NCBI GenBank assembly: GCA_024402565.1
Contig: JAKSTM010000016.1
Coordinates: 1 to 36,804, forward strand
Length of the DNA: 36,804 nt
Reading direction: 5' to 3'
Source: Treponema sp.
GTDB taxonomy: Bacteria > Spirochaetota > Spirochaetia > Treponematales > Treponemataceae
The notes under the pieces were generated by a model. It was not told where the DNA came from. It made no database searches and saw only the letters and a list, made by a program, of their open reading frames with translations. Numbering within the stretch: position 1 is the stretch's first letter; every line of letters starts with the position of its first letter. Shown here in pieces: positions 1,370-22,262 of the stretch. Position numbers and translations under genes: made by a program.

Positions 1370-3160
1370 ATGATTAACTTGGAAAATAAAGCAGAAATTC
1401 GTGTTAATGGCGGTTTATTTAAAGAAAGAGAAAATGTAAATCGTTCCTACCTGATGGAACTTGATACAGATTGTCTTTTACAGAATTTTTATCTTGAAGC
1501 AGGTATCTGTACACCTAATTCACGTGTTCATAATCCAGAGACTGTAAAAATGCATTGGGGCTGGGAATCACCAAGTTGTCAATTACGCGGACATTTTCTG
1601 GGTCACTGGCTTTCCGCAGCCAGCCTTTTAATCAAACATTACAATGATCCACAGTTAAAACAAAAACTGGACTTTATTATTGATGAACTGGAAAGATGCC
1701 AGAAATTGAACGGGGGAAAATGGGTTGGTTCAATTCCGGAAAAATTCTTCTACCGCCTGGAAACTTATGAATACATCTGGTCACCTCAGTATACAATGCA
1801 TAAAACCTGTTTAGGACTTCTGGATTCTTACCGTTATGCAGGAAATAAAAAAGCCCTGAAAATTATGAACAACCTGGCTGACTGGTATGTATCGTGGGTA
1901 AATTATGAAAAGAAAAACTGTCCTAGAGCCATTTACAATGGAGAACAGGGTGGAATGCTTGAAATCTGGGCAACTTTATATGAAATTACCGGATTAAAAA
2001 AATACATGACACTTGCAGAAGCTTATTCTGGAAATGTTGAGTTTAATCTTCTTCAGGAAGAAAAAGATGCACTTTCAAATATCCACACAAATGCAAGTAT
2101 TCCTTTGGCCCACGGAGCTTGTAAAATGTACCAGGTTACAGGTGAAAAAAAATGGCTTAAAATTGCTGAACAGTTCTGGAGATGGGCTGTAGAAGAAAGA
2201 GGATATTTCTGTACAGGTGGAAGCAACTCCGGAGAATTCTGGATTCCATGCAAAATGGAAGGACAGTTTCTTAATGAAAGAGACCAGGAATTCTGTACAG
2301 TCTATAACATGGTAAGATTTGCCCGTTATATGTATGAACTTACCGGAGATGTAAAATATCAGGATTATATCGAACTGAATATTTATAATGGATTCTTTGC
2401 ACAGCAGAATAAAAACACAGGAATGCCTTCATACTTTTTGCCATTAAATGCCGGCGGAAAGAAAAGCTGGGGAAGTAAAACCCGTGACTTCTTTTGCTGC
2501 CATGGAACCATGGTTCAGGCTCATACACTTTATTGTTCTTTAGCCTATGCAGGGGATGAAAAAGAAAACCTTTATATTAACCAGTATATCCCTTCATCTT
2601 ATAAGGAAAATGCTTTTTCTCTAACTCAGTCAGTTGATATGAAATTCTATGATACTCAATCTACTTTTTCTCAGGCAGATCAAGGCGAAATGTCCAGATG
2701 GCAGCTTAAGTTTGTAATTCAGGGAGACGGAACATCTAAAAAACTTTACTTTAGAATTCCATCATGGTGTAAAAAAGAACCATTCTTTGCCCTGGATGGA
2801 AAGAAACTTAAAGTAAAAAATGAAAAAGGGTATTTCGTAGTAGAAAATAAATGGACATCAAATGAAATCAAGATTAATTTCCCTGTAGAACTTACCACAG
2901 TTGATTTACCTGGTGATGACGACAAAGTTGCATTTATGGAAGGTCCGGTTGTCCTTGCCGGATTAATTGACGGAGATTATGGAATAAAACTTAATTCCGA
3001 CCTTAAAAATAGTTTCATTAAGCAGCAGGAACATTTGTATTCTGCTTTTTCATGGAAACAAAGTACTTACAACACAAAAGGCCAGGATAGGAATTTCCAG
3101 TTTATCCCGCTTTATGATGTAGTGGATGAAAAATATACAGTATATTTTACAAAAAAATAA
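1370..3160 (+). CDS. GH127-type beta-L-arabinofuranosidase (DUF1680 family)
   Basis: 596 residues. The N-terminal (alpha/alpha)6-barrel signature, with several Trp/His-rich helices such as GHFLGHWLSAAS near residue 74, matches glycoside hydrolase family 127. In the characterised family member HypBA1 a zinc-thiolate centre uses Glu-X-Cys and a Cys-Cys pair, one of which is the nucleophile. Here the corresponding residues appear to be Glu307-Phe-Cys309 and Cys376-Cys377, with Glu289 in GGSNSGEF a candidate acid/base. These residue matches are by recalled motif, not alignment. No signal peptide is seen, so it should act in the cytoplasm on imported arabino-oligosaccharides. An AAGAGGTG ribosome site precedes the ATG. 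Its stop abuts the stop of the convergent AraC-type gene with no spacer. Exact substrate is uncertain because related families (GH137, GH142, GH146) differ in specificity. Confidence 0.85.
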   Translation: MINLENKAEIRVNGGLFKERENVNRSYLMELDTDCLLQNFYLEAGICTPNSRVHNPETVKMHWGWESPSCQLRGHFLGHWLSAASLLIKHYNDPQLKQKLDFIIDELERCQKLNGGKWVGSIPEKFFYRLETYEYIWSPQYTMHKTCLGLLDSYRYAGNKKALKIMNNLADWYVSWVNYEKKNCPRAIYNGEQGGMLEIWATLYEITGLKKYMTLAEAYSGNVEFNLLQEEKDALSNIHTNASIPLAHGACKMYQVTGEKKWLKIAEQFWRWAVEERGYFCTGGSNSGEFWIPCKMEGQFLNERDQEFCTVYNMVRFARYMYELTGDVKYQDYIELNIYNGFFAQQNKNTGMPSYFLPLNAGGKKSWGSKTRDFFCCHGTMVQAHTLYCSLAYAGDEKENLYINQYIPSSYKENAFSLTQSVDMKFYDTQSTFSQADQGEMSRWQLKFVIQGDGTSKKLYFRIPSWCKKEPFFALDGKKLKVKNEKGYFVVENKWTSNEIKINFPVELTTVDLPGDDDKVAFMEGPVVLAGLIDGDYGIKLNSDLKNSFIKQQEHLYSAFSWKQSTYNTKGQDRNFQFIPLYDVVDEKYTVYFTKK

Positions 3161-8842: not shown

Positions 8843-8882
8843 AAAAAAAGGTGGTTTAGAAAAAACTAAACCACCTTTTTTT
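8843..8882. terminator. Bidirectional terminator between permease and diguanylate cyclase genes
   Basis: AAAAAAAGGTGGTTTAG (8843-8859) pairs with CTAAACCACCTTTTTTT (8866-8882) around six A. T runs on both strands serve the two convergent genes; the last base overlaps the cyclase stop codon. Confidence 0.9.
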
Positions 8883-10261
8883 TACATCAAGTAATTGTTA
8901 CGGCCGTTTTCTTTTACCTGATAAAGTTTTTCGTCGGCCACTTTCAGCATGTTGCTGTATGATTTGTCTACTACATTTTCAGGAATTGCCACACCCATAC
9001 TTATAGTGAGTTTTAAATCAGGAATATCATCAAATCTGATTTGTTCTACGGCGGAAAGAATATCCTGGAATTTGATTCGTAAAGTTTTTCTTTCAATATT
9101 ACTGAAGAAAATAATAAATTCATCACCACCAAAACGAACAATTCTGTCTTTGGCTGGATTCGAAATACTCTTTTTTAAGATGTCGGCAATACAGGTTAGG
9201 GCACGGTCGCCAGTTGTATGTCCAAATGCATCATTAATATGTTTAAAATTATCTACATCAACAATAGCCACAGAATATTTATTTTCAGGATATCGCCAGT
9301 CACCGGTAACAGCATCCAGCATATTTGAATTCAAATAATAACGTGAATAGCAATTTGTAAGATTATCCTGTTCGGCAAGAACCTTCATTTTATTTCCATC
9401 ACGCCGGATACGGAAAACAAGAAGTATAAAACCTGAGAATAAAATAGAAATCAGAAAAATTACAATATGAGCAAGCTTATCGATATTTTCATTTTTCCAT
9501 CCTTTACTTGGAGCAACGTCCAGATACCAGAACAGATTATTAAATGTAACTTTCTCGGAAATAGCCCCTTGAATATCATTATTGTTAGAACTTAATATCA
9601 CTTTATTTCCATTTAGGTCGTAGTGCCATAAACAATAATCAATATGCATTTTTGTAAGGTTTTCAAATTCAAAGGCTTTAATCAGGTCATCAAAATCAAT
9701 TGTGACTGAAACGAGTCCCCAGTATTCGGACTGTTTTCCGTTTTGTATATAAACAGGTGTTCTGGCAGACATACCGATTCCACCCTGAACCAAAGAAAAT
9801 GGATTTGTTAAAATGGTACGGGCTCTGATATTTGCTTCAACGGCTTCTTTGTTCCCATCGTAGCTTTCATCAGACAAATCAAAACCGATTAATCCTTCAT
9901 TATTGATCAATGGTTCAACTTTAGAAACAATTCCTTGAGGTGCTAAAAGAAGATTTCTAACCTGTATTCCGGTATCTTCTTTAATTGAATCCATTATTTT
10001 AGGTGCCGCTTTTTCAAAGAAATCAGTATTTCCCTGATTTTCATACAGCATTTCCCGAAGAGTATAAGTCCGAACGACCACTTTATCGACACAGTTGGAA
10101 ATATAATTTGCTTCATTTATGGCTATGTATTTGTAACGGTTTTTATCTTCGTTGACAGTAAGATTTTGAACATATCCATAACATAGATTTAATATAACGA
10201 GATGAACTATAAAAGAAATAAAACCAAAAATAAAATCTCTAATTTTTTTCGACAATTTCAA
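8882..10261 (-). CDS. Membrane-bound diguanylate cyclase with CHASE-like sensor
   Basis: 459 residues: membrane helix at ~8-29, a periplasmic sensor of ~230 residues with CHASE-type wording (NLLLAPQGIVSKVEPL, NPFSLVQGGIGMSARTPVY, EYWGLVSVTIDFDDL), a second helix at ~263-285, and a C-terminal GGDEF domain. The active-site motif RFGGDEF (GGDEF at 378-382) is intact, as is the metal-binding Asp in VAIVDVDNFKHIND, so it should make c-di-GMP. The inhibitory RxxD site expected five residues before GGDEF reads PAKD, so product inhibition through the I-site is probably lost. The start codon is TTG. The first TTG (10261) has GGGG only one base away; the TTG two codons on (10255) has better spacing and may be the true start. 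Ligand unknown. Confidence 0.9.
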   Translation of the reverse strand: MKLSKKIRDFIFGFISFIVHLVILNLCYGYVQNLTVNEDKNRYKYIAINEANYISNCVDKVVVRTYTLREMLYENQGNTDFFEKAAPKIMDSIKEDTGIQVRNLLLAPQGIVSKVEPLINNEGLIGFDLSDESYDGNKEAVEANIRARTILTNPFSLVQGGIGMSARTPVYIQNGKQSEYWGLVSVTIDFDDLIKAFEFENLTKMHIDYCLWHYDLNGNKVILSSNNNDIQGAISEKVTFNNLFWYLDVAPSKGWKNENIDKLAHIVIFLISILFSGFILLVFRIRRDGNKMKVLAEQDNLTNCYSRYYLNSNMLDAVTGDWRYPENKYSVAIVDVDNFKHINDAFGHTTGDRALTCIADILKKSISNPAKDRIVRFGGDEFIIFFSNIERKTLRIKFQDILSAVEQIRFDDIPDLKLTISMGVAIPENVVDKSYSNMLKVADEKLYQVKENGRNNYLM

Positions 10262-11964: not shown

Positions 11965-11993
11965 AAAGAAAGCCCCGCCTTGATGGGCGGGGC
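11965..11993 (-). terminator. GC-rich terminator closing the surface-protein operon
   Basis: GCCCCGCC (11972-11979) and GGCGGGGC (11986-11993), 6-nt loop, followed on the minus strand by TTTCTTT. The stem is conspicuously GC-rich in AT-rich surroundings. Confidence 0.75.
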
Positions 11994-12002
11994 GGGGGGA
12001 AA

Positions 12003-15000
12003 TTATTCAAAAATAATATTATCTATAAGACATTTTTCATTATCAGCAGTAGTACTTCCATCTTTACTAAATTTCCACGTAAATGTATGAATTCCGTTAG
12101 AAAGGCCGGTTACTTTTCTTGTAGTCCATCCTGAAGTATTACCACTAATTGTCGTTTTTGCTAAACCATCTACAATCAATTCTAATTTATCATAATTAGA
12201 TTCAGATATAACATTACAATCAAAAGAAATCGATGTTGCCGTAGTTTTATAAGTAATTGAACTTGATGAAGTATGAATACCTAAATTGCCGGCTGAAAGA
12301 GAATAGTTACCTTTATTTCTTTCAGTAGAATAATTTACCCATGGGTAAGTTGTATCATTTGTAACTTCAACTTTATAACTTTTTATTGAAACTTGATTTG
12401 ATTCAATATTATAACAATCCCGTAATTTGAAAAAATAAGACTCCCCACCAGTTTTAGTGGTGCTAACTGATTTTGTCATTATAGTATTTGCAGAAAGGTT
12501 ATAAGTCCCATCATTAGTAATAACAAATTTAAAACTATTATTAGGATTATCGAATAAATCAGTTAAAGAACTATAACTCTGATCAGTAGCCTTCATTCTT
12601 AAATTGACAGATGTAGTAGAAGGAGCTCCATAAACGTAAATAATTCCATTCTTAGAATAGACCATAGTTGATTCAGGGAATTCACCAACTCTTTGTATAT
12701 TTTGATCGGTCAAATTATAATTGACGAAAGAGCCATTATTATTACTGATACTTACTAATTTTGGAGCATTTTTATCCTCTACATAGAAAACACTTGTATT
12801 TCCAATAGCATCATCAATAGATATATGAAATTCTGGGAATTTACCGGAAGTTATAACTTTTAACCAAACAGATTTTGTTTTAGGAAATTTTAAATATCCT
12901 TCATCAAAAGAGATTTTATATATTCCTTCAGAATAATCATAATCAATATCTTCGTATGAACTTCCTGAGTTCAATGAATATTTTACTGATTTATGTCTTG
13001 ATAACAAATTTAAATGATTTAAGCCAGAAATAGAATCTTTAAGATCAAGTTTTAATAAAAACTCATTTTGAGTGGTTGAAGAACTTTGAGTTCCCTCGAA
13101 ACTTTTTAATGTAATTTCAGGAGGAATATTATCAAGCACAACTGTAATCTTATCAGAATATGAGTTTCCAACTTTATCTAAAGCTACATAATGCCAGACT
13201 GTTCCAGTCGAATCAATACTGTAATCTTTTAAGAAAGCATTCTCGAGATCTTCTGTATAAAACGAATGTTTTCCATCTTCTGTATAAAAGGATACAGACT
13301 TAAAAATATTTTCTGGATGATAGCGCTCTAATTCAACAGCTACACCATCATCATTTCTATAATGTTTTATAAGACCTGTATGTTTTTCAGAGACAAATGA
13401 TAAGTGAGGGCCTTCACTATCATCATAAAAATTAAGGTAATAATTTCTTGAATTTCCAAAAATATCACTTACTTTTACAATAAACGAATTACTTTTTTCG
13501 GAAGAAAATGAAGGTAAATAAACTGAGTGAGAGGTCCAGTTATCAGAAATAATATTATCTGGGAATATATTGTTTATTGATGTATAAGTAGAGTCATTTT
13601 TAGGATCGAAGTACATATATCTATTATTCTTTTTATAATAAATATAATTATTACTATCATAACGATACTCAGAATCAACATAAATTTCGATAAAAGCCTT
13701 TCTAACTCCATTATCTTCTGCTTTGTAAGTAGAAGATAAATCATTTTTATTTGATACTGCATTAGGGAAAGCAATTAAACTTTGAATTTCATTATAAATT
13801 GCCTCGCCATTATTTTGTTTGAAATAAAGTATTTTTGATACATCAGTAGAAGAATACCAGCTTTGAGTATCATTTGAATTGCCAAGACATAATTCAGGAG
13901 GTGTAGTATCAAGAATAATGGAATCAATATCGGAACTTTCATCATTTAATCCATCTGAAACATATACTTCAACAAAATAATCTCCATCAGCAATATTATC
14001 AGAGTCATCCTTTCTTGGAATTAATTCTCCTTTAACCCGATATTTTGTATTATTATTAATTGTTCCATCTGTAACTGGAATACAAGTATAAGGACCGTAA
14101 TATCGGTCTATTTCATTATCAAAGATCTTTAAGTTATCATATGGAATTTCAGGACCATCATCAATTTGTATAGAAGAAATTTTTATATTAGTTATTTTAA
14201 TTCCATTTTCAACAATTCCATGTCCAGTTTCAGTTACGGTAAAATCAAGAACAACTTTTCCATTAGTATAAGTTGTAGTTCTGCCATTTGAAGAAGATCC
14301 AGAACTTTGTTGTTTCAAATCATAATCAAAACCATCACCAACACCTACGGTAAATGAAAAATCTTCATAGGTAATATCCTGATTAAAAGGATCTCCCGTA
14401 TATAATAATCCGCTAAAGGAATTATTATATTCAGGGTTTAATCCTGTAATTTCGACATGAGGAGGAGTTGTATCAAATAATGCATTAAATACTATTTTTT
14501 CAGAAATATTTCCAAGTAAATCTTCAGCATAAATTTCATAACTTTTTCCAGTATTTACTGTTAAAGAATAACCTGCCGGTTCGATTATTTGGCTATTTTC
14601 CTTAACTACAAGTTTTGGATAAGTTTCAATTCCTATAGAGGATTGGTCTTCGAGTCTCCAATTAGTAGTAACGGAAGTTTTATTTAATGTTAAAATATCT
14701 TTATTTAAATTCATGAAATATTCATCTGAATTATCAATTAAGACAGGAACTTTTGGGGAAGTAACATCTATATACAAAAGCTGACCATTATCACAAAAAC
14801 CAGTTCTAATTAAACCGTTTTCATCCTTTAAAGAAATCCAAGGATAAATAATACAATCTTCGGGATGTGAAGCAAAATATGAATCAGGAATTAGAGTTTT
14901 CTGAATAGAAGATGCTTCTTTCCATGAGGTCCAGCTAGATACCATAGTAGTTGAATCAAACACTGTTTTCGAAGTAGCTAAAGCTACTCGCCAGAATACT

Positions 15001-16766
15001 TTATCACTTGCACCCGCAATTTTTGGTTTTTCTTGAACACCAAAATCGTAAAGAGTTTCATTATTTACTCTAAAAGCAACTGAACTTTTATTTTTTCCAA
15101 AATAACGTTTATTGTTATAAGAAATTCCACAATCATCAGTAAAAGAGATGTTATGCTGGTTATCTATTATTCTTGGAGCAGTTGTATCTCTGACAAAATA
15201 ATAGAAAACCGAATTGTCTGCACGATTATAAAGTTCATCACATGCTGTAAGTTCAATTTGGAAAAAACCGTCTACAGGAAGAGGAATTGTATCTGATGTG
15301 AAAAAAGAGTTTAAATCAAATGTACAAAGATTATCGTCGGAAATTGCGATATTATCATTTCCTGAATAAGGAACTACAATTTCTTTATAGAAATCTTTTT
15401 CAAGATAACCTGCTTCATAAAGCCAGTTTCCTTTTTCATCAAATAATCTTAAATTTTTAGGAGCTTTTTGCTTTGCGTTTGGAATATTTCCACCTTCAGG
15501 AACATATAATAGACGCAAAACAGCAATAAAGTTTTTAATTTTCGAATCACGGTCACTAGCACTAACTTTAAATTTGAACATCTGATCTTTTACAACATGA
15601 ATAGAATCCGCATATGTATGATTTGGATCAGGTGAATCTGAAGGTTCAAAATCTCCCCAAATGGTAACTGGAATTTCCTCATCAGGAGTTTCGGAATCAC
15701 CTTTAAGGAAAAGTTTAGTATCTTCTTGTGACAAAATAGGTCCTGTTGAATCTCCTTTAGTACCAATGGTATATGTGAAATAATAATCCTCTAATAATGG
15801 AATACCTGCTTCATCAGTGAAAGTCTTGTCAATTGAAACACGAACTTCACTTCCTGATTTCATCCATAAAGGTTCATCTGTATTATTAACAGGACTAATC
15901 ACAACTTGATAATTGTTTTCTTTTAATTCAGGATTTTTGAAATATCTTGGGTGAGCATCCGTACCACTTAATATTTCCTGGAAAACATTTTCGCCATTTC
16001 CATTTAAGACCCCAGCATTATCACAGCGCATAACATTAAAATAATTTAAATAAGCTGTCGAATCAGCACCAAAAGATTTCATAGGTTTTGAAAAACGAAT
16101 TGTAATAGGAGCGGTTCGCATTACATCTTTTTCAAATGAGTAAGGATCTGTACTTTGAATGAAAGGACGTATTTTAGTTTCTACTACAATGGAAATTGTC
16201 TGACTATTTGACTCTTCCACAAAAAGAGTACCTGAAAATTTGGAAAGATTTGATTCAAGCTTTGCGTTTTTTATGCTTACAATATTTTCTCCAGAATTAT
16301 TAACCAAAAACAGATTTTCTGGAACAAATGTTTTTCTAGCCATTTCATATCTACAAAGAACATTCTCTGATGCATCTTTAATTAAAACTGCTGAAATAGC
16401 ATACTGATCTATGGCATTAATTGAAAACTGAACTCCATTTGAAGAAAGAGTTTTCACCTCGCCAGAAGGAGAAATAGAAGATTCAGAAGAGGATACAAAA
16501 TTTACAGTTTTCTTAAATACTGAAACAGGGGATATTGTAAGATTTGAATCTGTTTCATTAATAAGTCTAAATTTTAAGGATGCATTTGTAACAGATTCAT
16601 AATTATTTCCTTCACTAGTCAAAATTGAAACATCATAAACAGCTAAAAGTGAATTTAATACCGCTTCCGAAGAAGTATTGAAACTGGAATTAAGGGAATA
16701 AAAAGCGTAAGTTCCAGGAGAAGGTTTTATCCAATTGTATTCATCTTCTGTGTATAGAGGAACCAA
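12003..16766 (-). CDS. Giant Ig-like surface lipoprotein, C-terminal part (frameshifted from 17087-18526)
   Basis: 1,587 residues from the first ATG, but the frame is open and protein-like up to 17159 and continues the product of the upstream frame, so this is the C-terminal ~1,720 residues of one ~2,174-residue lipoprotein. After more of the N-terminal ~130-residue modules comes an SbsA-like Ig domain (MRTAPITIRFSKPMK) and then a series of Ig-like units each opened by a DTTPP-type linker: DTTAPRIID, DTTPPHVEI, DTTPPELCL, DNIPPEITL, DKNAPKLVS. The last ~90 residues resemble a jelly-roll carbohydrate- or protein-binding end domain (SGWTTRKVTGLSNGIHTFTW, then CLIDNIIF). Likely cell-surface adhesin or scaffold. 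As it stands this part has no signal peptide or ribosome site of its own. Last gene of a three-gene operon. Confidence 0.8.
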   Translation of the reverse strand: MVPLYTEDEYNWIKPSPGTYAFYSLNSSFNTSSEAVLNSLLAVYDVSILTSEGNNYESVTNASLKFRLINETDSNLTISPVSVFKKTVNFVSSSESSISPSGEVKTLSSNGVQFSINAIDQYAISAVLIKDASENVLCRYEMARKTFVPENLFLVNNSGENIVSIKNAKLESNLSKFSGTLFVEESNSQTISIVVETKIRPFIQSTDPYSFEKDVMRTAPITIRFSKPMKSFGADSTAYLNYFNVMRCDNAGVLNGNGENVFQEILSGTDAHPRYFKNPELKENNYQVVISPVNNTDEPLWMKSGSEVRVSIDKTFTDEAGIPLLEDYYFTYTIGTKGDSTGPILSQEDTKLFLKGDSETPDEEIPVTIWGDFEPSDSPDPNHTYADSIHVVKDQMFKFKVSASDRDSKIKNFIAVLRLLYVPEGGNIPNAKQKAPKNLRLFDEKGNWLYEAGYLEKDFYKEIVVPYSGNDNIAISDDNLCTFDLNSFFTSDTIPLPVDGFFQIELTACDELYNRADNSVFYYFVRDTTAPRIIDNQHNISFTDDCGISYNNKRYFGKNKSSVAFRVNNETLYDFGVQEKPKIAGASDKVFWRVALATSKTVFDSTTMVSSWTSWKEASSIQKTLIPDSYFASHPEDCIIYPWISLKDENGLIRTGFCDNGQLLYIDVTSPKVPVLIDNSDEYFMNLNKDILTLNKTSVTTNWRLEDQSSIGIETYPKLVVKENSQIIEPAGYSLTVNTGKSYEIYAEDLLGNISEKIVFNALFDTTPPHVEITGLNPEYNNSFSGLLYTGDPFNQDITYEDFSFTVGVGDGFDYDLKQQSSGSSSNGRTTTYTNGKVVLDFTVTETGHGIVENGIKITNIKISSIQIDDGPEIPYDNLKIFDNEIDRYYGPYTCIPVTDGTINNNTKYRVKGELIPRKDDSDNIADGDYFVEVYVSDGLNDESSDIDSIILDTTPPELCLGNSNDTQSWYSSTDVSKILYFKQNNGEAIYNEIQSLIAFPNAVSNKNDLSSTYKAEDNGVRKAFIEIYVDSEYRYDSNNYIYYKKNNRYMYFDPKNDSTYTSINNIFPDNIISDNWTSHSVYLPSFSSEKSNSFIVKVSDIFGNSRNYYLNFYDDSEGPHLSFVSEKHTGLIKHYRNDDGVAVELERYHPENIFKSVSFYTEDGKHSFYTEDLENAFLKDYSIDSTGTVWHYVALDKVGNSYSDKITVVLDNIPPEITLKSFEGTQSSSTTQNEFLLKLDLKDSISGLNHLNLLSRHKSVKYSLNSGSSYEDIDYDYSEGIYKISFDEGYLKFPKTKSVWLKVITSGKFPEFHISIDDAIGNTSVFYVEDKNAPKLVSISNNNGSFVNYNLTDQNIQRVGEFPESTMVYSKNGIIYVYGAPSTTSVNLRMKATDQSYSSLTDLFDNPNNSFKFVITNDGTYNLSANTIMTKSVSTTKTGGESYFFKLRDCYNIESNQVSIKSYKVEVTNDTTYPWVNYSTERNKGNYSLSAGNLGIHTSSSSITYKTTATSISFDCNVISESNYDKLELIVDGLAKTTISGNTSGWTTRKVTGLSNGIHTFTWKFSKDGSTTADNEKCLIDNIIFE

Positions 16767-17086
16767 AGAATTCGGAGTAGAAACTCTAATGGAATCAAAG
16801 TTATAAGTATTATCAGAAGAAAACTTTACAGAATATTCTTTTCCTGGATGTGCAATAATTTTACCGGAAGGAGTATTAACAGTATTCTTAACATAAGTAT
16901 CTGCCTGTATCTTAAGTTTTTTTGCGTAACCTTTTTTTACCCTAATTTTAAATGTGGCACGAACTTCTCCAGAATCTTCATCAAGAGTTGGATTAAAGTT
17001 ATAAACAGCAAAAAGGGATTTTTTAACAGATTCAAGACTTTCATCAAGTATTTTACTGTCAGTTATATAAATATAATTTATAGGCT

Positions 17087-18526
17087 TTACTTCAGAGGAA
17101 TCATATTTTGTCTGGTTATATGTATATATGATTGAATTTGATTCATCCGTAAAAATAAATCATTTAAGTTATACCCAGGAACTGAAGAAACTGTAAAAGT
17201 GTAATCTTTTCCCGGATGGAATCTTACTTCGCTTACCATTGGGTCAATAGAATTTTCATTTTTCTTTGAAACTGGTATCAAAATAGAATTTATATTTAAT
17301 ACAGGTTTTATAATTACTGTTTCAGAAAAACCATTAATCGATTTTACATTAAACGAAACTGTTGTTTTTGTTTCATAAGCGTTTGAGTCGGTTGTTTCTA
17401 CATAAAGGGAATAAATAGCAAAAGCGGCAGATTTAACTTCTTCAAGTGTTTCATCTACAGTATCTGAATCAGATATATATACGTCAGGTACAGCTCCTGA
17501 TTCTGTAGAAAATGAAAGAGAGTCATAACTATACTGATCAGGAATTGAAATTTTAAAGCTTAAGTCTTTTGATGGAAGTACTACTTTTGGAGCATTCGGA
17601 GTGATAGTTGTATTTTCATATCCTTCAACGTTACCTAAAATCTTCAAATATGAATCAACTTTTGGTTTTACATAAACCATACTTTCAAGGTTATGGAAAA
17701 GACATGCATTGAATGAAACTTTTACTGCACCTTCTGGTAAATTATTTTCAGTTACATTAAAAAGACATAAAAGAGAATTTGTTACGGCAGAAGAATAATA
17801 ACTTCCGTCGTTATCGGACTTTGTTTCCGGGTTTCCGTCTTCACAATTTATGATATATGTATAAGGTTCAGGAATGTTTTCTCCCAAAGCATAGAATTGA
17901 TCTAGTGTATAAACTGGAATATCAATTTCTTCAACTCCATCACTTGAAATAAATTTAATACGGCCAAAACTGATTCCATAATCATTAGTTGTCTGAATAA
18001 CAAAATTCTGATAAGAAAAACTTTCATTTCCTGTAAGTCTTACCTGATTTGCGATAAGGCTTTTTGCTTCACTAGTTGAGTTCTTAGAATAGAAGTCAAT
18101 ATTGTCATAGGAAATACTGAGAACAGGGTTTTCATGTACTTTTGCAACAACATAAACACCTCTTATTTCTTTCAGAAGGGTTACATTTGTTTTCAGACTG
18201 TTTTCATTTTCAAAAATTATATCATCGGAAGTTAGGGGAGTTTCGTTATTATCTTTATCACGGACAACAGCGTACCACTTTTCAAACACTCCGGAATTTT
18301 TAGGAAGACTAAGTTCAATCTCAAAAGGAATACCAACACGGGCATCTCGGTTGAAACCTGTTACTACAGTTCCGTGATCACTTACTACTGAAACAAGGAT
18401 TTGTGCGGCTGTATTATAACGGACTTCTTCAGCCATTTTATTTGCGGTATCAAGGTTTCCTGTCAGAAAATTTTCACATGAAGCAAATAATAAACATGTA
18501 AAAATAATCCCTAAAAACTTTTTCAT
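17087..18526 (-). CDS. Giant Ig-like surface lipoprotein, N-terminal part
   Basis: 479 residues to the present stop, of which ~457 are the real N-terminus. The signal peptide MKKFLGIIFTCLLFASC ends in a lipobox with Cys17, so the product should be lipid-anchored. AAGGAGAT lies just before the ATG. Repeating modules are visible, each with a PGK-YTFTV-like strand, a Y-x-x-(D/N)-S/L block and an Asp/Ser-rich loop (YSYDSLSFSTESG, YNFDSIRVSTPNS further on). The final ~22 residues (RMNQIQSYIHITRQ onwards) are out of frame; the correct continuation is in the other frame (TDESNSIIYTYNQ) and joins the downstream part. It follows the transglutaminase-fold gene by 52 bp, apparently in the same transcript. 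Confidence 0.85.
   Translation of the reverse strand: MKKFLGIIFTCLLFASCENFLTGNLDTANKMAEEVRYNTAAQILVSVVSDHGTVVTGFNRDARVGIPFEIELSLPKNSGVFEKWYAVVRDKDNNETPLTSDDIIFENENSLKTNVTLLKEIRGVYVVAKVHENPVLSISYDNIDFYSKNSTSEAKSLIANQVRLTGNESFSYQNFVIQTTNDYGISFGRIKFISSDGVEEIDIPVYTLDQFYALGENIPEPYTYIINCEDGNPETKSDNDGSYYSSAVTNSLLCLFNVTENNLPEGAVKVSFNACLFHNLESMVYVKPKVDSYLKILGNVEGYENTTITPNAPKVVLPSKDLSFKISIPDQYSYDSLSFSTESGAVPDVYISDSDTVDETLEEVKSAAFAIYSLYVETTDSNAYETKTTVSFNVKSINGFSETVIIKPVLNINSILIPVSKKNENSIDPMVSEVRFHPGKDYTFTVSSVPGYNLNDLFLRMNQIQSYIHITRQNMIPLK
17151..17155 (-). other. Frameshift site in the giant lipoprotein gene (A5/T5 tract)
   Basis: On the minus strand GATTTATTTTTACGG carries five T where six would give D-L-F-F-T-D-E-S and keep one frame across 12003-18526. 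The total length, 6,524 nt, becomes a multiple of three with one added base. Either a real mutation, a phase-variable tract or a sequencing error. Confidence 0.75.
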
Positions 18527-18578
18527 TTTTATCTCCTTATTAATTCCTTTTTGATAATAAAAAACTTTTCTAACTCTC

Positions 18579-20255
18579 TTAATAATTTAAATTAATCTGC
18601 TTACGGAAAGCGGAAAGCAATTCCTCTTCAGAAGGAATTTCAACAATAAAATCTTCTCGTGGTGGACAAACTGATTTATAGTTGTATTCATTCCATGAAG
18701 TTCGGGTAGGGTAAATCATAGCCTGATTTGTCTCCATAGCTTCGGCTTTTTTCCATTCAGTCATACCGAAACGAACAGCGGCATTGAATCCATCTTTTAT
18801 CATAGTAATTTCAACTGGAATCCAGGCTTTGTCTTCTGCAATTATCAGAATATCAGTTGAGAACACAGAACGGGCTTCTTCTTCTGAAAGACCTGTACAG
18901 AAGGCTGTATAAATATGTCCTGGAACAGTAATAAAGGCCGATTCAATTCCAAGTGTTTCCAGAAGGGAACAATAAAGAATGGAAAGGTCATCACAGTCTC
19001 CACCGCGGAAACGAAGAGTCTGGAATGGGAATTGAAGGAAGTCTACTGAAGCAGAACCAACGTTATCTGAATAAGCACTGGTAGGGTCAATTACATAGTT
19101 CATTCCATAAAGCTTAACCGCTTCAAAAAGTCCTGCAGCATACTGAAGGTTTGTATTTTTTCCTTCTACAAGGCTGTGACGAACCATGGTTTCAATTTGC
19201 TTTGCAAAGTCGTTTGTCTGTGAGTCCTTACTTGAAACAAAAACAGCAGCCCGGCGGTCATCTTCCCAGGACATTGCATTACGATTATATACTGGAACTT
19301 TTACCGGAATTTCGGCAGATTCTTTTCGTCCAAGTCGCTTGTATTCAAGAATAACACGGGCATTTGCATCAGATTGTTCCAGAAGCTTAAGTGTAGATTC
19401 ATTGAAGAATGCTGTAAGGTTTACAGAAACTGTTTCATTCTTTTTTATATAAGGGATTTTTTCGCAGAACTTACTGTGACTCATATATTGTTCACAATAG
19501 AAATAAACATTTACATCTGTGATAGCAGTATCTTCGCCATTATAAATATCAACAGTACCAAAAGAGTTTGTGTTATACCATGAATAAAGAACTGGGAAAA
19601 CAGGATTCAGACTGGATAATTCTCCGCTGATTTTTATTTTTGGAGAAAAGGCTTCTTTCATATTAATTGAAAAGCCAGCCTTTATAGAAAAATCACTTGG
19701 TGAAAAAACTTCGTTATATCGTGATTTATATCCAACAGTTATATCTGCATTAAGCCACGGGAAAATTCTTATTTGAGTTCCTACATCCACTCCATAAGAA
19801 ACACCGGATAAATTGACGTTGTTAATATCACTGGAATTAGTTTCTGAAGCGATTTTATGACTTGCAGAAAAAAGTCCTCCGTAAAGGTCACCTTTTAGAA
19901 CTACACGGTCATGAACAGGATAAAGAAAAGAAACTCCAAGGGAACCATCAATAACATCAAAACCATTCAGTTTACTTTGTGAATTATTAGGATTTACAGT
20001 CTGAGCGTAATGAGAAAATCCTCCGCCAACGAAAATACCAAGAAATGGAAAAGGTCTGATTTCCAAGTCCAATTCTGCCCCAAGAGGAGCTTTTAAAACC
20101 GAAAGAGTTTCAATGCTTTTCTGATCCTGAATTGGAATACCCGTATTGAAACCAGCCCCTAAAAGGATGCTGGTTTCTGCATAAAGTCCTGAAGACAAAG
20201 AAAGTACAAAACAAGCGGAAAGGACACTTAAAAAGGATTTTTTATTTAATCTCAT
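18579..20255 (-). CDS. Exported barrel protein with active-looking transglutaminase-like domain
   Basis: 558 residues. Signal peptide of ~26 residues ending GLYA. Residues ~28-205 alternate in the manner of outer-membrane beta strands (repeated Gly/aromatic girdles, PFLGIFVGGGFSHY, LNADITVGYKSRY). Residues ~230-325 look like a beta-sandwich, and ~350-520 carry a transglutaminase/cysteine-protease fold: Cys421 in RGGDCDDLS, His447 in VPGHIYTAF and Glu482 in WIPVEIT. That is the Cys-His-acid triad in the right order and spacing, with Glu replacing the usual Asp. Possible roles are cross-linking or cleaving an envelope protein; the obvious candidate is the giant lipoprotein encoded next. AAGGA precedes the ATG, 15 bp after the upstream paralogue. 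Substrate unknown. Confidence 0.75.
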   Translation of the reverse strand: MRLNKKSFLSVLSACFVLSLSSGLYAETSILLGAGFNTGIPIQDQKSIETLSVLKAPLGAELDLEIRPFPFLGIFVGGGFSHYAQTVNPNNSQSKLNGFDVIDGSLGVSFLYPVHDRVVLKGDLYGGLFSASHKIASETNSSDINNVNLSGVSYGVDVGTQIRIFPWLNADITVGYKSRYNEVFSPSDFSIKAGFSINMKEAFSPKIKISGELSSLNPVFPVLYSWYNTNSFGTVDIYNGEDTAITDVNVYFYCEQYMSHSKFCEKIPYIKKNETVSVNLTAFFNESTLKLLEQSDANARVILEYKRLGRKESAEIPVKVPVYNRNAMSWEDDRRAAVFVSSKDSQTNDFAKQIETMVRHSLVEGKNTNLQYAAGLFEAVKLYGMNYVIDPTSAYSDNVGSASVDFLQFPFQTLRFRGGDCDDLSILYCSLLETLGIESAFITVPGHIYTAFCTGLSEEEARSVFSTDILIIAEDKAWIPVEITMIKDGFNAAVRFGMTEWKKAEAMETNQAMIYPTRTSWNEYNYKSVCPPREDFIVEIPSEEELLSAFRKQINLNY

Positions 20256-20270
20256 ATTTTAGTTTCCTTA

Positions 20271-22262
20271 CTAGTTTCCCTGTTCATTAGCAATGCGTTC
20301 AAGACCTTTTTTTGCACCTGAATGTTCAGGATTAATTTCAAGAACTTTGTTGTACCAGCTTTTTGCATCTGCATAATTCTTTTCCAGAAGTGCAATATTA
20401 GCAAGGTTAGACATAGCAGAAACAGATCCAAGTTTTGCTGATTTGTTATATGCATCTTTTGCATTTTTATAATCACCGGAACGTACATAAAGAAGTCCAA
20501 GTGCATTAAGGTTTGCTTCAGTAGGATTAGACTGAGCAAGTGCTGCCTGAGTTCGTATTTTCGGTTGAATTTCATTCTGAAGATATTCAGACAAATCTTT
20601 ATCGGCTCTTTTTTTCAAGGCGGCAGTTTCATATTTTACATTCTGAGCATTTCCTGAAATTCCGACAGGTGCATAACTTGCCCAGGCGTCACGAAGAATA
20701 ATCATTTCTGAACCTTCTTCTTCTGCAGCAATTGCTTCAAGGGCAGATTTCCATGATGCATTAAATCCGTTCTTAATATTTTTCATAGAAAGTGGAAGCC
20801 AGACTTCATCGTTATAAACAATTACACTTTCAGGATTATTTACAAGAGAAGCAACGCCTTTTTCAGTAGCATTCATTGAAAGGGCCACAACAAAATCGTC
20901 TGTAAGAGGAATCAATGCAGTATCAATTCCGACAGCCTGCATAAGGGAAGAAGTAAGAACTGCCAGATCATCTACATCGCCACTTTTGTATGTTAGGGTC
21001 TGGAAAGGGAACTGAATAGAATCAACAGCATCCATATCCAGATGATATGTTGAATATGGTGTGTTTACACCTGGAACATAATCGATTCCAATTGTATTAA
21101 TAGCTTCAACAATCCACATGGCAAACTGCATGTTACGGTTCAAACCTGTTCTAAGACTGTCACGGGCAAGGCCAACAATAGACTTAGAAAGTTCAAGAAC
21201 TTCATTTGAGTTTGGTGAAATAAACATTGCTATAATTGCCGGATCTACCCATTTCATTGCATTGCGGTTATAGACATCAAGAATGAAAGTATCTTCGGCA
21301 GTCATTGGTTTTCCAAGAAGGGTATATTCAATAATTATTTCGCCAGGAATCTGACCGTCTTCAGTGATAGATGAAAGGTTTTCAGAAAAGTCTGCAAGAA
21401 GAGGAATATCTACATATTTGTTTTTACGAATCATAGGAACTTCACCACAAGAGAAAAGAGATGAAGTATACTGGTCGGCACGGAAATAAACTTTTACATC
21501 ACGGATTTCTGCAGATTCGTAGTTTGAAACACGAGCATAGGCAAAACCGTTTTCTTTATAGATATTTGCATATACAGGATAAACTGGTTCATCCTGAAGA
21601 CATTCACTGTCGATCTTTTTTGAAATCTTGGAAGTATTAATTGTATATTTAAGGCTTAATCCAAATTCAGGACCGCTTATCATACAATCTGTAAAACTGA
21701 ACTTATCAAGAAATGAAACAGAGTATCCTAATTCTGCACCAAGCGACAAAGCCGGAGAAAGGCGGAAAGAAGCATCCATGAAAGCACGCATATACATACT
21801 TCTCATTAAATACTGTTCAGGTTTTATTTCATAATCGTTACCTGTGGCATCCTTAATTCCCGGAAAATCATAAATACCTAAGTGCATGCCACCCGCAAGT
21901 CCCCCCTGAAGTTCAAGACGAGAAATAGGGTAGAAAAAAGCAGACACATTCAGACCACCAAAGTAATCCATGAAGTAAGTAGGATTTCCTTCCTTCTGAA
22001 TATATTTAAGACCAAATTCAGGACCTACAGAGATAAGGTCAAAAAGATTAATCCCAAAACTTCCAGTAACACCAAATGCAGGATTTACTATTATTTTTTT
22101 ATCGTTTTTATCTACCATGGAGCCAACAGGCGCCAGAAGATTTGGAGTGAGTCGAAAATTCAGTTCAACGGCAGAAAGGGCCGACATAACCGCAAAAGCC
22201 GCACATAAAACAGATACTTTCTTTAAAGCTCGACTATTCAAATTCAATAAAACATTTTTCAT
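20271..22262 (-). CDS. Exported barrel/transglutaminase-fold pseudoenzyme with TPR tail
   Basis: 663 residues, colinear with the next gene's product over barrel, sandwich and transglutaminase-like parts; both share VYNRNAM, QFPFQTL and the (D/N)GFNA block. Signal peptide ~31 residues ending ALSA. The catalytic positions are all replaced: KSGDVDDLA has Val430 for Cys, Asp456 stands for His, and Ser492 for the acidic residue. It adds a C-terminal TPR-like region (~580-660, LGLLYVRSGDYKNAKDAYNKS and ANIALLEKNYADAKSWYNKV) that the paralogue lacks. Probably a non-catalytic partner or scaffold rather than an enzyme; this is inference. First gene of the operon, with a weak GAGAT ribosome site and a dyad overlapping its likely promoter. 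Confidence 0.75.
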   Translation of the reverse strand: MKNVLLNLNSRALKKVSVLCAAFAVMSALSAVELNFRLTPNLLAPVGSMVDKNDKKIIVNPAFGVTGSFGINLFDLISVGPEFGLKYIQKEGNPTYFMDYFGGLNVSAFFYPISRLELQGGLAGGMHLGIYDFPGIKDATGNDYEIKPEQYLMRSMYMRAFMDASFRLSPALSLGAELGYSVSFLDKFSFTDCMISGPEFGLSLKYTINTSKISKKIDSECLQDEPVYPVYANIYKENGFAYARVSNYESAEIRDVKVYFRADQYTSSLFSCGEVPMIRKNKYVDIPLLADFSENLSSITEDGQIPGEIIIEYTLLGKPMTAEDTFILDVYNRNAMKWVDPAIIAMFISPNSNEVLELSKSIVGLARDSLRTGLNRNMQFAMWIVEAINTIGIDYVPGVNTPYSTYHLDMDAVDSIQFPFQTLTYKSGDVDDLAVLTSSLMQAVGIDTALIPLTDDFVVALSMNATEKGVASLVNNPESVIVYNDEVWLPLSMKNIKNGFNASWKSALEAIAAEEEGSEMIILRDAWASYAPVGISGNAQNVKYETAALKKRADKDLSEYLQNEIQPKIRTQAALAQSNPTEANLNALGLLYVRSGDYKNAKDAYNKSAKLGSVSAMSNLANIALLEKNYADAKSWYNKVLEINPEHSGAKKGLERIANEQGN

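Follow-up and report, generated by a model that had tools for sequence, protein, structure and literature searches.

A spirochaete locus combining a predicted barrel-anchored transglutaminase-like enzyme, its putative pseudoenzyme and a giant Ig-like lipoprotein gene

The window analyzed here, a stretch of 36,804 nucleotides (contig JAKSTM010000016.1 of assembly GCA_024402565.1), belongs to a Treponema metagenome-assembled genome (MAG; 119 contigs, 85.6% completeness). It carries three genes in series on the minus strand: P1 and P2, two paralogues in which a predicted outer-membrane barrel is combined with a transglutaminase-like domain, and, following them, the gene of a giant immunoglobulin-like (Ig-like) lipoprotein. 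Their features, in positions of the window, are the following:

20271-22262, minus strand: P1, 663 amino acids (aa); predicted barrel strands 33-209, Ig-like domain, predicted catalytically dead transglutaminase-like domain, C-terminal tetratricopeptide repeats (TPRs) 546-660
20973-20975, minus strand: codon of P1 Val430, at the catalytic Cys position; the His and Glu positions hold Asp and Ser
18579-20255, minus strand: P2, 558 aa; predicted barrel strands 29-198, Ig-like domain 208-324, transglutaminase-like core with Cys421, His447 and Glu482
18993-18995, minus strand: codon of the predicted catalytic Cys421 of P2, in the motif G-D-C-D-D
17087-18526, minus strand: N-terminal frame of the giant lipoprotein, 479 aa; the lipobox Cys is residue 17; matches the N-terminal module profile
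18407-18478, minus strand: lipoprotein tag, from the lipid Cys to the A-N-A position, which reads N-T-A here
17087-17159, minus strand: overlap of the two lipoprotein frames, with the frame change here or close by
12003-17159, minus strand: remainder of the giant lipoprotein in a different frame, 1,718 codons from stop to stop
11972-11993, minus strand: terminator-like hairpin with a T-run, directly after the last lipoprotein stop

The three genes are separated by gaps of 15 and 52 bp, and P1 and P2 lie where the original prediction, made from the letters of the window, had placed them. Its statement that no terminator occurs until 11993 also held, the hairpin at 11993-11972 having a stem in which all eight pairs are G-C; terminator-like sites in the region numbered 5, against 4.6 expected in shuffles. 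The third product had been described as a lipid-anchored Ig-like protein of about 2,174 residues. A lipobox was indeed recognized by eye (ASC-ENF); a single intact frame was not found, as the lipoprotein region (12003-18526) comprises 6,524 bases, which is no multiple of three, and is read in two overlapping frames. Both frames match, in the same order, the lipoproteins of two sister loci (L015 and L016, from Treponema MAGs of horse faeces), which are intact in one frame (1,537 and 1,686 aa, respectively) and sit at the equivalent place, between an alanine-racemase-like gene and thrC. Because both pieces match the same intact sister proteins in order, the window lipoprotein is best read either as a single gene that a frame change has interrupted or as a sequence error of the MAG.

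Structure prediction supported the earlier description of P1 and P2 as paralogues with a barrel and a transglutaminase-like domain. Their N-termini resemble export signals (by eye), and the AlphaFold2 models of both (mean predicted local distance difference test 85 and 90) show an eight-strand barrel of the OmpA kind together with an Ig-like domain and a core of transglutaminase-like fold. In Foldseek searches the P2 barrel matched OmpA (1bxw) with an E-value of 6.6e-8 and the P1 barrel with 8.3e-5 (3.5e-6 against an OmpA model); a VIA search also matched the barrel to OmpA. The barrels are predicted to sit in the outer membrane, with the Ig-like and transglutaminase-like domains (and, in P1, the TPRs) in place of the peptidoglycan-binding domain that OmpA carries. 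In the transglutaminase-like superfamily the Cys stands at the start of a helix and is followed by His and an acidic residue on the next strands, a layout that the P2 model follows, since Cys421 starts a helix (421-434) and His447 and Glu482 come on later strands (439-444, 447-457 and 476-481). In searches of solved structures, the profile of the active-type alignment gave no significant match (best E 0.13), the best 60 of the 178 matches obtained with the P1-type alignment align best in the TPRs, and the top match of P2 in a phmmer search of the PDB, the 'Periplasmic protein' 4fgo, which we take to be Legionella LapG, places GGDCED on GGDCDD at a non-significant E of 0.63.

In a barrel of eight strands, the N- and the C-terminus both lie on the periplasmic side. 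For this reason, and considering the C-terminal ends of relatives of P2, the core would face the periplasm: one relative (L039) ends in a SPOR domain over its cut-off (E 5.3e-5), and 19 of 31 long active-type relatives have, beyond a long linker, a hydrophobic C-terminal helix and a charged tail. P2 of the window has no such C-terminal helix or tail. One active-type gene (L147:49-5149, the same as L030) has its membrane-helix tail in a second, overlapping frame, as is seen for the window lipoprotein.

A scan of 84,980 species, each represented by a single genome, yielded 107 relatives, the best 80 of which were kept. All 80 come from records titled Treponema, Spirochaetales, Spirochaetaceae, Spirochaetes or Spirochaetota, and many were recorded from rumen and gut samples; the cultured rumen treponeme T. 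bryantii B25 has two or more pairs. Core-profile matches in these loci and in those of the window's own genome made up a family of 160 open reading frames (ORFs). The His was present in 82 of them, all of which also had the Cys and the Glu; 77 lacked both His and Glu, and one partial ORF is gapped there. Active and inactive classes were defined by these very residues, and only the split itself is taken as evidence. Asp precedes and follows the Cys in 81 of the 82 active ORFs each, and it is retained before and after the position of the lost Cys in 76 and 77, respectively, of the 78 dead ORFs (one of them partial). At the Cys position itself the dead ORFs have Tyr (31), Lys (14), Val (10) or, in five cases, still Cys; their His position holds Asp or Glu in 77, and their Glu position holds Ser in 62 and never Glu. 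Judged by these residues, P1 is a catalytically dead paralogue (pseudoenzyme) of P2, and the residue pattern of the dead ORFs shows the dead form to be old and conserved rather than recently decayed. The loss of the catalytic residues and the C-terminal TPRs of P1 had not been noted in the original prediction, nor had two further pairs in the same genome. In a few deep loci (L091, L092) an active gene without a dead partner has a giant gene downstream. For profile building, 77 active and 70 inactive relatives were counted and 60 of each were taken for alignment; the active alignment (A4) consists of 59 of these (L056 was left out) plus the window and L011, and the inactive one (A5) of 60 plus the window, L011 and L013.

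The genome thus holds three pairs, namely that of the window, one on contig C98 (L014) and one presumed across the ends of contigs C103 (L013) and C39 (L012). These two ends share sequence inside one active-type gene and for this reason probably adjoin, forming the third pair. In each of the three pairs one member has Cys, His and Glu and the other has none of the three. Moreover, each of the two further pairs adjoins a large Ig-like lipoprotein gene (4,206 and 1,093 aa). The 1,093-aa lipoprotein gene is convergent to the C103/C39 pair at a distance of 2 bp, with a 1,227-aa GGDEF ORF beyond it.

The association between pair and lipoproteins was also seen across genomes. A profile of the N-terminal lipoprotein module (A6; 39 of 46 profile matches) and A4 for the active protein were both searched in one set of 200 genomes from the window's genus, scoring at most 7 candidates per genome for P2 and 18 for the module. 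Relatives of P2 were found in 62 genomes and the module in 65, with 61 genomes having both, one only the P2 type, four only the module and 134 neither (phi 0.94; these counts ignore shared descent, and the genes that make up A6 came from the vicinity of pairs). As a control, a GH127 gene of the window (1370-3160), counted at an E-value of 1e-30 or better with many of the matches distant, was present in 63 of the 200 genomes and had only 29 in common with the 62 of P2 (phi 0.22). At the level of the phylum (392 genomes; at most 3 candidates per genome scored for P2 and 9 for the module), P2 relatives (profile A2) were detected in 57 genomes, the module in 25 and both in 23.

Gene position was compared along a midpoint-rooted IQ-TREE phylogeny of 81 active cores, which separated clade A (45 rows), clade B (33 rows) and the window trio; 21 of the 81 rows were cut by contig ends. 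A big ORF without a profile match was counted as a lipoprotein if it had at least 700 aa downstream or at least 900 aa upstream, and L030 (lipoprotein 1.1 kb on, behind a 392-aa ORF) and L085 were labelled by hand. In clade A, 30 rows have 1.5 kb or more of downstream sequence; a large lipoprotein-type ORF was found there in 29 of them (28 by the 700-aa rule and L030 by hand), and the remaining row (L087) has a lipobox ORF of 598 aa that is cut by the contig end. The lipoprotein is downstream in the window trio as well. In clade B, where the active proteins mostly have 507-563 aa, 27 loci were testable: a lipoprotein lies directly upstream in nine (L085 by hand), farther upstream in three and convergent at 2 bp in one (contig C39 of the own genome). 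Clade-B lipoproteins may otherwise lie elsewhere in the genome. Among 20 scattered lipoprotein genes that were fetched, two lie beside a pair (L157 within the stretch, L154 about 0.8 kb beyond it), and the other 18 have no pair in the stretch, nor one near among the matches listed. As many lipoprotein genes are scattered, a pair would serve most lipoproteins in trans. The survey for homologues without a large surface protein nearby therefore gave a split answer for the earlier prediction, favorable in clade A and unfavorable in about half of clade B. Adjacency, together with 61 common genomes against 62 and 65 of 200, supports a functional tie between the pair and the giant Ig-like lipoproteins. 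Two active enzymes were not supported, P1 being a pseudoenzyme by its residues.

The lipoproteins combine a constant beginning with a highly variable remainder. Between the window and sister L015, identity was 85% for P1, 82% for P2 and 99% for thrC, and 30-33% for the alignable parts of the lipoprotein. The shared start consists of the lipid Cys in the motif C-x-[NS]-[WF]-[ML], a stretch whose last residue is V or I, and the tag A-N-A, the three residues of which are conserved in 37 (Ala), 32 (Asn) and 35 (Ala) of the 39 sequences of A6; an A-[NSTR]-[AST] or N-T-A motif 19-21 residues after the Cys was present in 61 of 68 sequences with a recognized lipobox. The module following the tag matched Big_5 in 21 of 39. 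Lipoproteins are multigene, with up to at least 18 module matches per genome (some of which share one gene). The longest open frame seen with the module, in genome G512 (contig C5, near 92432-92983), has 9,431 codons and is, to our knowledge, among the longest bacterial frames known. C-terminal ends were more diverse. A hydrophobic helix with a mostly basic tail closes all 13 complete giants beside clade-A pairs in own-genus or Treponema-titled genomes (L026/L027 and L132/L133 being near copies), and it is lacking in eight giants, likewise complete and lying downstream, from more distant spirochaetes (L018, L019, L046, L063, L090, L091, L092, L137). A domain ending in '...HFADGT..M..V.QK' at most two residues from the protein end was found in 25 proteins, seven of which are profile seeds, and might be a sorting domain; it occurs on many scattered lipoproteins (L012:5037-8318, L141 and 14 of the 20 loci L150-L169). 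No sortase-like motif was evident by eye before the helix and tail of the giants of one clade, other C-terminal types exist, and direct repeats found in the lipoprotein DNA were only short and weak. The C-terminal ends of the lipoproteins of the window and its sisters may hold a carbohydrate-binding-like domain (CE2_N in the window, E 0.033, below cut-off).

The closest working model is given by LapG and DvhG, proteases of giant adhesins under c-di-GMP control. Both are calcium-dependent, with a transglutaminase-like fold and a Cys-His-Asp triad, and the bond at which LapG cleaves its adhesin is an Ala-Ala bond that follows a helix (PMC3032545, PMC13090378); the calcium site of DvhG involves D316 and E318, which flank C317 (PMC13090378). 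P2 resembles them in its transglutaminase-like Cys-His-acid site, in the acidic residues on both sides of the Cys (as in DvhG) and in having a giant surface protein as genetic partner, DvhG being one protease for two adhesins. It differs in its own predicted outer-membrane barrel, its Ig-like domain and its dead paralogue, in the Glu that takes the place of Asp as third residue (82 of 82 His-bearing ORFs), in its partners, a lipobox family instead of adhesins that leave by type I or Vb secretion and are not lipoproteins, and in its recurrent cyclase neighbor, a CHASE2 plus class III cyclase. Because Glu replaces Asp and the partners are lipoproteins, P2 is, as far as sequence tells, no member of the LapG/BTLCP family, and we know of no LapG with a barrel, an Ig-like domain and a dead twin. 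Long Ig-like lipoproteins of spirochaetes are represented by the Lig proteins of Leptospira; the modules described here differ in matching Big_5 weakly and in having the post-lipid tag and a dedicated enzyme pair.

The interpretation tentatively favored, although we hold it short of probable, is that the pair is an outer-membrane-anchored maturation station. P2 would hang its Ig-like and core domains into the periplasm from the OmpA-like barrel and use Cys421, His447 and Glu482 to cut lipoproteins close to the tag beside the lipid anchor, and P1, having lost all three residues, would hold the substrate. The tag would be a cut or docking site and the surface the final place of the lipoproteins, with one or few pairs serving many scattered lipoproteins in trans. 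Cleavage near the tag is preferred, with the same reserve, because LapG and DvhG are the nearest working model and P2 has the acid-Cys-acid motif.

Several observations weigh against this interpretation. The main evidence against a simple operon rule is that 14 of the 27 testable clade-B loci have no lipoprotein within the fetched flanks. In the phylum survey, 34 of the 57 genomes with P2 relatives gave no module match, and the genus counts carry the reservations on descent and on the origin of A6 given above. The Pfam family Transglut_core (PF01841) reached 18.6 bits in P2, below the curated cut-off of 23, and was matched at E 0.01 in 15 of 61 relatives; moreover, in the 50 best rows of the VIA search the barrel and the Ig-like domain are present and the core is absent. 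In addition, the triad is completed by Glu where LapG has Asp, the lipoprotein gene of the window is broken, and the tag in the window and in sister L015 is N-T-A and not A-N-A.

Next to cleavage comes the reading of P2 as a true cross-linking transglutaminase, joining the giants to peptidoglycan, to barrels or to each other and thereby fixing them in the envelope, with P1 presenting the acceptor. It would use the same catalytic site. The acid-flanked Cys, which resembles the motif of the LapG and DvhG proteases, weighs against it, and we consider it unlikely yet the foremost of the alternatives. Improbable, by comparison, is a structural bridge of the envelope, with the barrel in the outer membrane, the tail helix in the inner membrane, the giants spanning from lipid to helix and the core only binding. 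The terminal helices of the long P2 relatives and of the 13 clade-A giants are what such a bridge would display; however, the catalytic site is either whole (82 ORFs) or gone (none of the 77 readable others has His or Glu), which is unexpected for a mere binder, the lipoprotein helix is missing in the window, the sisters, the second clade and the eight giants of distant spirochaetes, and chains of thousands of residues far exceed the width of the periplasm. About as improbable, or slightly more so, is that the pair does not act on the lipoproteins at all, both being co-inherited and serving the host-associated life style of one lineage. Both are concentrated in part of one genus, as co-inheritance would have it, and the counts disregard descent, yet the genes are tightly adjacent outside the genus too (e.g. 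L018, L019, L091, L092, L137), and the control gene of equal frequency had only 29 genomes in common with the P2 relatives.

A role as an export helper that brings lipoproteins to the cell surface in the manner of Slam appeared the least probable of all; export was also contained in the original prediction. Slam proteins combine N-terminal TPRs with a 14-strand DUF560 barrel (PMC5449769). A barrel and TPRs encoded beside lipobox proteins recall this arrangement, and one relative has a weak TPR_Slam match (E 0.00036, below cut-off); nevertheless, the pair has an eight-strand N-terminal barrel, C-terminal TPRs in P1 and a catalytic core, a site that export would leave unexplained. OmpA-like barrels of eight strands have no known export lumen, and for that reason movement of lipoproteins to the surface through the pair was not supported.

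The placement and turnover of proteins on the fragile outer membrane of spirochaetes are poorly known. Across the 200 genomes the enzyme, its dead twin and the multigene giant family come and go together, and the short tag makes the link testable. If the maturation mechanism were confirmed, the LapG problem, how to cut giant surface proteins, would have a second solution of different build, and the pair would be a clear case of an enzyme and a pseudoenzyme acting together in the outer membrane of bacteria. The surface system is apparently undescribed: literature searches on spirochaete transglutaminases and lipoproteins, LapG, Slam, surface lipoprotein assembly and CHASE2/FecR, with subscription papers mostly outside them, gave no recognizable description.

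An anti-phage role was also considered and rejected. Residues 235-507 of P2 match the N-terminus of NF058533 ('antiphage_ProA') with an E-value of 4.6e-10 and 37.6 bits, the cut-off being 1500; the same family matched in 7 of 14 control genomes, over the cut-off in none, PADLOC assigned 0 families to P1 and P2, and a literature search on ProA returned nothing bearing on such a role. A unit made up of Ig-like domain and core may therefore be present in further large proteins.

Two kinds of cyclase genes were observed near the pairs. The window gene at 8882-10261, beyond thrC, encodes a CHASE-GGDEF diguanylate cyclase, for which the original prediction had raised control by cyclic diguanylate (c-di-GMP). 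It is syntenic in sisters L015 and L016 (66-68% identity), and a GGDEF ORF lies 3.7 kb from the active gene on contig C39. Such an ORF was found in only 7 of the 80 related loci (L015, L016, L034, L044, L052, L082, L084), two of which are the sisters, at distances scattered from 0.7 to 8 kb from the pair, and the neighborhood looks incidental. The second kind, of the CHASE2 plus class III cyclase type, was seen behind the pair in 10 of the 26 clade-B loci of the scan that could be tested, and at most about 5 kb past the giant in 10 of the 12 loci that have sequence beyond the giant (L014, L046, L129, L131, L133, L135, L136, L137, L147, L148; on the opposite strand in L046, L129, L133 and L137); it was not found after the giant in L128, nor in the 2.8 kb visible in L149. 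CHASE2 was confirmed by Pfam in the five genes tested (L014, L060, L079, L083, L131), the others being assigned by similarity to L079. In all 20 loci this gene is accompanied by a small secreted protein. Both are absent next to the genes of the window.

The most extensive reading of these data, which we regard as doubtful, would be a novel spirochaete system of surface-protein release, in which a barrel-tethered, calcium-dependent Cys protease and its dead twin cut scattered, hypervariable giants (of up to about 9,400 residues) at an A-N-A tag that they have in common, 20 residues away from the lipid; the CHASE2 nucleotide cyclase and the small secreted protein would form a sensing arm. Three of the small secreted proteins were tested and matched no Pfam family. 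Several have a tail like TASSRASEAKED, and they were noted in L014:12807-16517 (contig C98 of the own genome), L079, L131, L147 and L148.

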